A DNA stretch of 37,878 bases from Euryarchaeota archaeon TMED99 (GTDB lineage Archaea; Thermoplasmatota; Poseidoniia; Poseidoniales; Poseidoniaceae): the NCBI GenBank assembly GCA_002170315.2, contig NHFA02000052.1:12553-50430 (forward strand), read 5' to 3'. A model generated the notes under the pieces. That model did not search any database. It saw only the letters and a program-made list of their open reading frames with translations, and was not told the DNA's origin. The translations under genes were made by a program, and so were the position numbers. Of the stretch, positions 34,916-37,878 are shown piece after piece. Each line of letters begins with the position of its first letter. Within the stretch, counting starts at the first letter, position 1.

Positions 34916-35062
34916 ATGGTCGCTGAGATTATCGCACCCGCAGTTGAAGCAATGGGTGATTTCATGGATGCTGAAGAAAACAAGTGGTGGGTGCGCCCAC
35001 TGAAGGTGCTGATTTACATCGGTGTATTCTCTGTCATCCCGTTGTATTTTTACTTCATTTAA
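34916..35062 (+). CDS. 48-aa single-pass membrane microprotein
   Basis: Too short for the ORF track. ATG at 34916, AAAGGAG about 11 nt upstream, TAA at 35060-35062. A charged amphipathic N-terminus (VEAMGDFMDAEENKWWVRP) is followed by one transmembrane segment PLKVLIYIGVFSVIPLYFYF that ends the protein. Its stop codon overlaps the stop of the convergent PKD-protein gene within TTTAA. It resembles in plan the 39-aa microprotein at 36614-36733 (PLKV at the membrane entry, Tyr/Phe-rich end). Function unknown; it could be a small subunit or regulator of a membrane complex. Confidence 0.55.
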   Translation: MVAEIIAPAVEAMGDFMDAEENKWWVRPLKVLIYIGVFSVIPLYFYFI

Positions 35063-35859
35063 GCACTGGAATCCATTGGTGCAGTCATGCTCCAATCCGT
35101 AAGTGGCTTGTGCCAATCACGAACTTGATCCGTTTCCAATCGGAATTGCATTCCTTCACCAGGTTCGATTTCAAGGTCAAACATCTCAAAAGGAATACTC
35201 AATTCATTACTTCTGAATGTATCATCGAAAAGAATCTCTTGCTCAACGACCGCACCATCAACTGTGTGCTCTAGGATGACACGAACATGACATTCTTGCA
35301 GAGGATTTCGCATCGAACAAGATTCGCTGCTCCCATCGTGTTCAACGGTAACTACGCCCTCTAAGGAGACAATGCCTGGAGATGGTCGCAAATCAATTAC
35401 AGTAGATTTGGCAGTGGGTGCGCAAACGCATTCCATGTTATCCGATTCAACATTTGATTGCAAATCTACAGTAATTTCAACCGAAGAGACTTGAATTGCT
35501 TCAATCGAAGTTGATGTCGCAGTAACAGTATAGTGGCCGGGAGTGGCATAAGAGTGCGTTGCTGAAGGTCCAGTAGAAACCATTCCATCTCCAAAGTCCC
35601 AAGTTACAATTCCGCCAGCGTTGTTACTTTCAAAGGTAAATTCATGGAGAATTTCTGTAATCACGTCCTCTTCGTTATTATCACCATCATCAACTTCTAA
35701 CAGTGTGAATTGATTGATACCATAAACCACTGGTGCGTCGATGGAGAAAGGGCTATCCGAGGTTGATGGAGAAGATACCATCGAAGTGAGAGCAGCGCCG
35801 GAGGCAGCGCCAAGCACAACCAAAAGAACAAGAGTTGCAACAGAAATTGAATACTTCAT
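35059..35859 (-). CDS. Secreted or N-terminally anchored protein with a PKD domain
   Basis: 266 aa. Residues 7-27 are a hydrophobic signal or anchor (VATLVLLVVLGAASGAAL), with no lipobox cysteine. A PKD (polycystic-kidney-disease) beta-domain spans about 65-135, with the hallmark WDFGDGMVSTGPSATHSYATPG. The rest (about 140-266) holds five cysteines, two of them as CVC and the others in SCSMRNPLQEC, and is otherwise unassigned. PKD domains mediate protein or polymer contacts outside the cell. The TATA-like CTTTGATAAG is centred 26 nt before the ATG, with no ribosome site, so the message is probably leaderless. Divergent from the 108-aa gene at 35971. Confidence 0.75.
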   Translation of the reverse strand: MKYSISVATLVLLVVLGAASGAALTSMVSSPSTSDSPFSIDAPVVYGINQFTLLEVDDGDNNEEDVITEILHEFTFESNNAGGIVTWDFGDGMVSTGPSATHSYATPGHYTVTATSTSIEAIQVSSVEITVDLQSNVESDNMECVCAPTAKSTVIDLRPSPGIVSLEGVVTVEHDGSSESCSMRNPLQECHVRVILEHTVDGAVVEQEILFDDTFRSNELSIPFEMFDLEIEPGEGMQFRLETDQVRDWHKPLTDWSMTAPMDSSA

Positions 35860-35970: not shown

Positions 35971-36297
35971 ATGGATGAAAATGATGAAGAAAAAAACCGC
36001 TTGAAGGCCATTCGAGAGAAGCTCGAATCACACATTATCTCAACATTTCACGGTAAAGAAATGTGGTATCAAGAAAAGAGATTACAATACAAAGGAATAC
36101 CAGACATCACTACTGATGCATGGGGGGTCACCGTTCATTTTGAATGTAAACGAGGACAACCAGTTCACCTCAGTGGACGATGGGATTTCATCATCGCCTA
36201 TGCAGATTATATCGGTGCAGCATATGCAGGCTGGAGTCTCAGTTTTGAATGTCCGCATCCCGAATGGGAAGAAGAATTGGATGAAGAGGAAAAGTAA
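35971..36297 (+). CDS. Small protein with a possible PD-(D/E)xK nuclease-like core
   Basis: 108 aa. After an acidic/basic helical start comes KGIPDITTDAWGVTVHFECKRG. A Gly-x-Pro-Asp and, 13 residues later, Glu-x-Lys fit the PD-(D/E)xK plan of small nucleases and Holliday-junction resolvases. LSGRWDFIIAYADYIGAAYAG could be the following helix and GWSLSFE the next strand. This is pattern-based and the protein is short, so it may be a minimal or inactive fold. The tail is very acidic (EWEEELDEEEK). The last 19 codons and the following 18 nt are repeated with decay at 36573-36647, evidence of a former tandem paralogue. Confidence 0.5.
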   Translation: MDENDEEKNRLKAIREKLESHIISTFHGKEMWYQEKRLQYKGIPDITTDAWGVTVHFECKRGQPVHLSGRWDFIIAYADYIGAAYAGWSLSFECPHPEWEEELDEEEK

Positions 36298-36315
36298 AGC
36301 AATGCAAGGAGGATG
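36241..36315 (+). repeat. 75-bp direct repeat, copy 1 (3' end of the 108-aa gene)
   Basis: An ungapped alignment with 36573-36647 gives 64 identical bases of 75 by hand count. Copy 1 encodes the C-terminus SFECPHPEWEEELDEEEK plus the stop and a short 3' stretch. Confidence 0.85.
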
Positions 36316-36340
36316 CTATCAATTGATAAATGAATGATGC

Positions 36341-36580
36341 ATGGGGAGAATTGTGTCAGAAAAGCGCGTCTTGAAAAAGATGAAAAAACTCGCTTCAAGG
36401 ATTAACAGTCAAATTGAAAGTGTCCGTGACATCGTGGAAGATCTTGAAATTGAGTTCGAACTTCTTCAAACTCAAATCTCCAAATTGGAAGCGAAGAAAG
36501 GTTCACGTAAACAGGAAGATGAAGAAGAGATAATCGATATCGAAAATACTTCATCTGTTACTGTCAAGCCGAAGTTTTGA
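36341..36580 (+). CDS. Small coiled-coil protein, function unknown
   Basis: 79 aa. After a basic start (SEKRVLKKMKKL), residues about 18-52 are a heptad-patterned coiled coil (INSQIESVRDIVEDLEIEFELLQTQISKLE), followed by an acidic, probably unstructured tail. The start is uncertain: an ATG at 36341, or a GTG at 36353 with GGGGAG 4 nt upstream. Its last codons and stop run into copy 2 of the 75-bp repeat in another frame. No family recognised. Confidence 0.5.
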   Translation: MGRIVSEKRVLKKMKKLASRINSQIESVRDIVEDLEIEFELLQTQISKLEAKKGSRKQEDEEEIIDIENTSSVTVKPKF

Positions 36581-36647
36581 ATGCCCACATCCCGAATGGG
36601 AAGCAGAATTCGATTAAGAGAAGTAGTAGAGCAATCCAATGAGGATG
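36573..36647 (+). repeat. 75-bp direct repeat, copy 2, with a 14-codon remnant of a lost paralogue
   Basis: The frame matching copy 1 reads SFECPHPEWEAEFD then TAA. The first ten codons differ only at silent third positions (TGT/TGC, CCG/CCA), which indicates selection on the protein after duplication. No start codon or body remains upstream, so it is a remnant. On the other strand the segment contains the 3' end of the 39-aa microprotein gene. Confidence 0.75.
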
Positions 36648-36733
36648 GCGACGTCGGCAACAATCATGAACACTTTGAGTGGCAAAGGTAGGCTTTTGAA
36701 AAAATGAAAGATGCTTGTCTCTTCTTGCTCCAT
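36614..36733 (-). CDS. 39-aa single-pass membrane microprotein
   Basis: Too short for the ORF track. ATG at 36731-36733, TAA at 36614-36616. A short acidic start (MEQEETSIFHFFKS) is followed by LPLPLKVFMIVADVAILIGL, one transmembrane helix, and a LYYFS end. The TATA-like CATAATACAT is centred about 23 nt upstream. Its 3' end lies antisense to the 75-bp repeat copy 2. The minus strand of copy 1 encodes a similar hydrophobic end (SILLALLYFS) where one TAA-to-TCA difference removes the stop. Resembles the 48-aa microprotein in plan. Function unknown. Confidence 0.5.
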   Translation of the reverse strand: MEQEETSIFHFFKSLPLPLKVFMIVADVAILIGLLYYFS

Positions 36734-36825
36734 AGCATAGCCTCTGTTCAATGTATTATGACTGTTACAGTAAGAAATCACTAATTTTACTCAACAATTA
36801 CATATTAGCACATCTCACGAGAATC

Positions 36826-37440
36826 ATGGATGCGTCAACGGCTCTTGTTCAGTTATTGGGGATAATTGGTATCGCGTTGTTGACGCCAGGACCCAATCCG
36901 TTGACCTGTTTCGCCCACAGTGGCATGTTTGGAAAGAAGAGTAATACCCCTCTTATCATCGGAATGGCTACAGGAATTATCGCCATCGAATTGACCGTCG
37001 GCCTGGTTATTGACTCGTTAAGCGAGAATACCACAGCTCTCATCGCCCTTCACTGGATTGGAATGCTGTTTTTAGCAGCAATGGCTATCGGCATGCTTCG
37101 GTTTAATCCAGCCTCAATACAAATCGAAGAAACAACCTCGAAACTCGGAATGAAGACCGGCATTGCAATGCAATTTGCCAACGGTAAAGAATGGGCTTTC
37201 ATCATTCTCATCATGAGCCAATACATCACGCCTCTCGGTGGAGGAATCACTGGAATACTCGTCATTATTAGCGTCACTATATCCATTTGTGTCGCTGCAT
37301 TATTCATTTGGACATACTTTGGTGACAAAGCCTCAAACCTGTTCAGTGACCCAGTAAAAGGACCTCGTATCTTCAAAATATGTGGAACCTTGCTCTCGCT
37401 TCTCTGGGTGGCATTCCTCTTGCGAGGGCCTGCTGTTTGA
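36826..37440 (+). CDS. LysE/RhtB-family amino-acid exporter
   Basis: 204 aa from the ATG at 36826; the longer track start adds 25 polar residues that do not fit the family. It is a membrane protein with about six helices. The family signature near the N-terminus is ALLTPGPNPLTCFAHSGMFGKK, matching the TPGPN motif of LysE/RhtB exporters, and helix six ends RIFKICGTLLSLLWVAFLL. Members export amino acids or similar small solutes using proton exchange; the substrate is not predictable here. A TATA-like CATATTA lies 22 nt upstream. It ends 3 nt before the convergent helix-hairpin-helix gene. Confidence 0.8.
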   Translation: MDASTALVQLLGIIGIALLTPGPNPLTCFAHSGMFGKKSNTPLIIGMATGIIAIELTVGLVIDSLSENTTALIALHWIGMLFLAAMAIGMLRFNPASIQIEETTSKLGMKTGIAMQFANGKEWAFIILIMSQYITPLGGGITGILVIISVTISICVAALFIWTYFGDKASNLFSDPVKGPRIFKICGTLLSLLWVAFLLRGPAV

Positions 37441-37443
37441 GCA

Positions 37444-37878
37444 TCACTTCTTCTCGTCGTGTAGCTTCTTGGCTTGCTTTGCCCACTGGTCTCGCTTGAC
37501 TCGACCCGGGAAGAACTCGATGGCCTTGTTGACCTGTTCTTCGATCTCTGAGTTCATGTTTCCGACCTGTTCAAAGGTGTAAATACCGAGCGCATACAAC
37601 TTTTCAGCAATAAACGGACCAATACCCTTGATGGTTTGCAAATCATCTTTTTCATCCAAAGTTGCAACACCAAGCGTAGCAAAATCAATTGATTCTGCAT
37701 TCTTCGAAATACGTTCCAAATCCTCTGCCTGCTTGAGTGCCTTCTCGTCGAGTTTGACATCCTCACCAAGCAAAATCTTAGCTTGATTTGCCCACTGGTC
37801 TCGCTTAACTCGACCTGGGAAGAACTCGATGGCTTCGTTGACTTGCGTCTCAAGTTTCGCATCCATGTTCGCAATTTG
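37444..37878 (-). CDS. Helix-hairpin-helix repeat protein (5' part outside the window)
   Basis: At least 144 codons, open to the window edge. The track's ATG at 37866 is internal, because QIAN before it matches the equivalent QVGN of the next repeat. One whole unit is visible: a helix-hairpin-helix DDLQTIKGIGPFIAEKLYALGI, then YTFEQVGNM, then EFFPGRVKRDQWAKQAKKL. The latter half of a preceding unit is also present, at a spacing of 103 codons. This unit is known from predicted flap-endonuclease-like H3TH proteins and appended to some ribosomal proteins, and binds DNA or RNA without sequence preference. The upstream part will decide the function. Confidence 0.75.
   Translation of the reverse strand, partial: QIANMDAKLETQVNEAIEFFPGRVKRDQWANQAKILLGEDVKLDEKALKQAEDLERISKNAESIDFATLGVATLDEKDDLQTIKGIGPFIAEKLYALGIYTFEQVGNMNSEIEEQVNKAIEFFPGRVKRDQWAKQAKKLHDEKK
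37472..37878 (-). repeat. Two coding repeats at 309-bp spacing within the helix-hairpin-helix gene
   Basis: The segment beginning GCTTGCTTTGCCCACTGGTC at 37472 recurs at 37781 as GCTTGATTTGCCCACTGGTC and stays alike for about 70 nt or more. Both encode EFFPGRVKRDQWA. The high DNA similarity suggests a recent internal duplication or conversion. Confidence 0.75.

Follow-up and report, generated by a model that had tools for sequence, protein, structure and literature searches.

The question raised by this locus is why the end of a 108-aa gene (hereafter gene A) is present a second time a short distance downstream. The window, i.e. the whole stretch of 37,878 nt that was analysed, belongs to the genome of Euryarchaeota archaeon TMED99 (G000; 57 contigs, ~85% complete), and a first-pass annotation of it had reported a 75-bp repeat, read as the remnant of a lost paralogue. 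A literature search on this locus found nothing. Recounting the two copies, at 36241-36315 and 36573-36647 (both read on the plus strand), gave the same values as first reported, 64 of 75 positions identical without gaps and a start-to-start offset of 332 bp. First-order Markov shuffling of 2.4 kb, repeated 60 times, gave best 75-nt self-matches with a mean of 38.9 and a maximum of 43/75, confirming that the repeat is real and far above chance. When the whole gene A protein was used as query against its own genome, matches appeared at the two repeat places only. The repeat can also be found in two independently assembled relatives (L032 of G088 and L033 of G042) and is therefore no assembly artefact of G000.

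Gene A (35971..36297, plus strand) takes part in the repeat from codon 91 onward together with its 3' flank, while the body of the gene lies outside the similarity. The first ten repeat codons differ only silently (TGT/TGC, CCG/CCA), as had been described; these differences show that both copies come from the same gene end and are no proof that a second gene A ever worked. The minus strand reads ...GLLYYFS-TAA in copy 2 and ...ALLYFSSS in copy 1, with TCA at the place of the TAA of copy 2, in agreement with the LLYFS-type ends noted earlier. This minus frame, running through copy 2 in the three genomes with the repeat and through a single copy in G079, is one conserved frame of 39 aa, ME(Q/R)EE...HFFKSLPLPLKVF.IVAD..ILIGLLYYFS, with an ATG start and a TAA stop in all four genomes. 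In the window it is located at 36614..36733 (minus strand) and encodes a predicted single-pass membrane microprotein, MEQEETSIFHFFKSLPLPLKVFMIVADVAILIGLLYYFS.

In the single-cell genome AG-333-I22 (G079, locus L034) gene A, ending ...EDESV-TAA, runs straight into AAGAGAAGTAGTAAAGCAATCCAATGAGGATG, the sequence found behind the relic of gene A in copy 2 of the window, and here the stops of gene A and the microprotein gene share TTAA in a tail-to-tail overlap. The earlier suggestion of an ancestral convergent, overlapping gene pair including a membrane microprotein is thus borne out, by this uninterrupted locus and by a 39-aa protein with conserved homologues. The duplicated 75 bp are the overlap region of the two genes. 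In copy 1 the gene A 3' end is the working one, and the microprotein 3' end is present as a non-functional copy. Copy 2 holds the displaced original 3' end of gene A, a relic reaching to a TAA at 36615-36617, and the microprotein 3' end that is in use. Decay is reciprocal and affects the unused half of each copy; the relic in copy 2 is broken by 1-bp deletions in G088 and G042, and in copy 1 the microprotein stop is lost and gene A, in the window and in G088, now ends four codons past the old stop.

The 257 bp between the copies (36316-36572) consist wholly of a third gene and its promoter, a 79-aa coiled-coil reading frame that the first-pass annotation had missed. This coil gene (36341..36580, plus strand, alternatively starting from GTG at 36353) encodes the conserved C-terminus ENTSSVTVKPKF and is preceded by a promoter-like element, TATCAATTGATAAATGA (36317..36333, plus strand), identical in 17 of 17 positions to the non-coding sequence that precedes the coil gene of G063, a sister-clade genome. 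The nucleotide similarity to G063 starts at 36317, two positions beyond the last base of copy 1, and stops at 36576, four bases into copy 2, and thereby abuts both edges of the repeat. At the right junction, AGTTTTGA (36573..36580, plus strand), the stop region of the coil gene coincides with gene A sequence in a microhomology, at least AGTT being common to the window and the nearest donor-like sequence, and no clear microhomology was seen at the left junction. Members of the coil family occur in 99 of the 171 genomes searched in the taxonomic family. The gene is single-copy, the 88 genomes with a match among 293 of the order having one each. In other genomes of the genus the coil genes sit at several different loci, and at most of these other locations the C-terminus D-[LI]-E-N-[TS]-S-x-V ... 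K-F is conserved together with an upstream element around ATTGATAA. As a working guess from its sequence, the gene may encode a small cytoplasmic coiled-coil oligomer. A THOC7-like assignment was considered and rejected, the matches to THOC7 and similar families falling below the cut-offs and looking like generic coiled-coil similarity.

Taken together, the repeat is very probably the scar of an insertion, in which the coil gene was placed in the overlap between gene A and the microprotein gene, the overlap was duplicated and the insert itself was probably foreign. The ancestor would have carried gene A and the 39-aa membrane microprotein gene in convergent orientation with stops sharing TTAA. 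A fragment of ~260 bp, holding one coil gene and its promoter and probably donated by a sister-clade relative, would then have been inserted at the overlap with duplication of ~75 bp around it. Gene A would since terminate in copy 1, copy 2 would have retained the end of the microprotein gene along with a useless gene A relic, and neither neighbour would have been broken. We infer template switching or microhomology-mediated joining (a microhomology-assisted templated insertion) as the likely mechanism, the right junction presumably set by AGTT...GA, which the region of the coil stop codon has in common with gene A.

The order of events is less simple than the uninterrupted site suggests. The insert and both repeat copies are present in three assemblies (the window, L032 and L033), and a tree of the flanking genes gave the topology (G088,(G000,(G042,G079))), with 100/100 for G042 with G079 and 82/86 for the wider group. 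The genome without insert is consequently nested among inserted genomes, which requires loss or gene flow and means that its state is not simply ancestral. AG-333-I22 probably lost the insert secondarily, perhaps when the two repeat copies recombined, or had it replaced through gene flow. The identities of neighbouring segments disagree among the relatives and recombination is therefore at work; together with the tree this limits any claim on the date of insertion.

Archaeal elements with tRNA-targeting integrases integrate at the 3' ends of genes and rebuild them, and the coil gene could be, or ride on, a small site-specific element of this kind. When analysing other locations, coil genes were found behind tRNA-Asn in G094 (L061 733-1870) and G056 (L050 13-500), in both cases followed by a copy of the tRNA 3' end, which is clear in G094 (CTCAATCGGCG) and decayed in G056. 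The same tRNA stands without a coil gene in G000, G042, G088, G079 and G041. The tRNA-Asn case is a separate insertion at the end of a gene whose 3' end has to some extent been duplicated, and like the duplicated 3' end of gene A it agrees with an integrative element. In G094 a gene for an HNH endonuclease-like protein lies between the tRNA-Asn and the coil gene. Against such an element stand the absence of any integrase or recombinase from the 257-bp insert, which holds the coil gene only, and the lack of a common core between the tails of gene A and tRNA-Asn, which are unrelated. A third coil site (L046 1405-1960, compared with L123, L124 and L125) is situated behind a hairpin, GGGGGTTCGCCCCC; it is unoccupied in G094, G079 and G041 and shows no visible target duplication. 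No comparable flanking direct repeats were found within 700 bp of the coil gene at the other contexts examined, the tRNA-Asn repeat of G094 lying just outside this span and having been spotted by eye. One other context represents a larger rearrangement. With this evidence a site-specific integrative element is an unlikely source of the repeat. Two cases with duplicated ends make no rule, yet they make the reading of the coil as a mobile gene testable. In its strongest form, in which the coil gene would be a minimal mobile gene, inserting time and again at gene 3' ends and duplicating them, with no encoded recombinase and leaving overlapping neighbours undamaged, this reading is speculative and rather doubtful; if true, a single conserved gene would hop between places and lineages.

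The lost paralogue of the first-pass annotation, a tandem duplicate of gene A decayed to its last codons, is very unlikely. Copy 2 does start with gene A codons showing silent differences only, and the last copy of a tandem duplication would also keep the original 3' flank, but the DNA between the copies is all coil gene and coil promoter, no trace of the first 88 codons was found there and copy 2 codes for the end of a conserved microprotein. The intact two-unit arrays that had been proposed as a check in relatives occur in none of the 171 genomes. That the copies are a shared regulatory or terminator element, as their position at gene ends might suggest, is extremely improbable, since the similarity spans gene A codons and opposite-strand microprotein codons, one relative has a single copy doing both jobs and the gene A protein has matches in its own genome at just these two places.

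Returning to the insertion and to the origin of the inserted gene, a tree of dihydrolipoamide dehydrogenase places the window inside one clade of the genus (97/90), and its coil protein falls outside 16 coil proteins of that clade (93/97). Joining the coil of the window to the G094 group or to the G087 group, both made up of copies from close relatives, was rejected (p 0.002 and 0.0044). Joining it to its own clade, minus G047 and G075, was not rejected (p 0.15), and a horizontal origin is therefore not proven. At the nucleotide level the window matches G063 at 82% across the first 216 nt, promoter included, and the coil copies of the own clade reach ~69-72% over the same part with the promoter excluded; promoter similarity was found only with sister-clade copies. 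A horizontal gain from the sister clade is accordingly the likely origin. The type of coil gene usual in the own clade was not found in the genome of the window, which points to a probable replacement of the gene by horizontal transfer at a new location. Where the locations that coil genes occupy in close relatives could be checked in this group, they were empty of it, namely the tRNA-Asn in G000, G042, G088 and G079 and the hairpin site in G079.

The conservation of the two neighbours was followed further. Homologues of the microprotein were found at unrelated loci in six further genomes with 38 to 67% identity, and their alignment shows eleven invariant columns. The best 19-residue hydropathy of the microprotein is 2.3, a membrane-helix value. 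Every pairwise comparison among the four genomes gave a dN/dS below 1, with low values in the more diverged pairs (e.g. 0.074/0.54). Like gene A, the microprotein is restricted to its lineage. Judging from this, it can be proposed as a working guess that the microprotein is a single-pass membrane protein and probably a small accessory factor.

Gene A belongs to a lineage-restricted family with matches in 39 of the 171 genomes at E <= 0.1, the weakest of them doubtful, and its dN/dS is ~0.1 among the four relatives. Searches of Pfam, NCBIfam, PADLOC, PHROGs and PDB gave no significant match, the RACK1-like matches being weak (E 0.011 and worse) and covering one short stretch, and an AlphaFold2 model built from six sequences was poor (mean pLDDT 51.5). 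W51, G52, S68 and W71 are invariant in the family. A PD-(D/E)xK-like nuclease was considered and rejected, E-C-K being changed to E-C-N or absent in most members; with the E-x-K stretch not conserved and no significant Pfam or PDB family, the description of gene A as nuclease-like was dropped. Its nearest further relatives, in G041 and G087, are without insert and without repeat and have different neighbours. The search for homologues on both strands, suggested at the outset, did find them; the pairing it was expected to show is kept only in the four close relatives, gene A and the microprotein gene occurring apart elsewhere. With the pairing confined to these relatives and no PADLOC match for gene A and the coil, the two that were scanned, the defence or toxin-antitoxin-like role that had been guessed found no support.

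The locus shares features with three known systems. As in insertions with target duplication, of transposon type or by templated repair, direct repeats of the target flank the insert and a near relative is without it, but transposon target duplications are usually far shorter than the ~75 bp seen here and the insert contains no transposase, being one ordinary conserved gene. As with archaeal integrative elements at tRNA and other gene 3' ends, the 3' end of the target is duplicated and the gene stays intact, whereas an integrase is missing here and the repeat does not form a shared attachment core. The short overlap with stops sharing TTAA is that of convergent tail-to-tail pairs, with the difference that in this locus the overlap was resolved when an insertion duplicated it. 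Such an event would offer a compact genome with no spare DNA a route to accept a gene, the tail overlap being duplicated and both genes surviving. Two small genes come to light here as well, one for a conserved, predicted membrane microprotein of 39 aa, a size often passed over by gene finders, the other single-copy and frequently relocated within one genus. What resembles the remains of a pseudogene in one genome can, on the opposite strand, be a gene end still in use.

On the left the locus is flanked by a gene for a PKD-domain protein (35059..35859, minus strand), syntenic in the relatives, and on the right by a LysE-type transporter gene (36751..37440, plus strand; PF01810, 30.8 bits against a cut-off of 25.6), divergent from the microprotein gene. 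Alignment with relatives suggests that the start of the LysE-type gene may be the ATG at 36826 and not 36751. In G042 the LysE-type gene (L033 6781-6998) is ~65-70% identical to that of the window, with neighbouring genes above 90%, and has probably been replaced by recombination. Further to the right a gene for a helix-hairpin-helix-like protein (37444-37866, minus strand) contains a 70-bp direct repeat (90%) at 37467-37536 and 37776-37845, which is an internal domain duplication.
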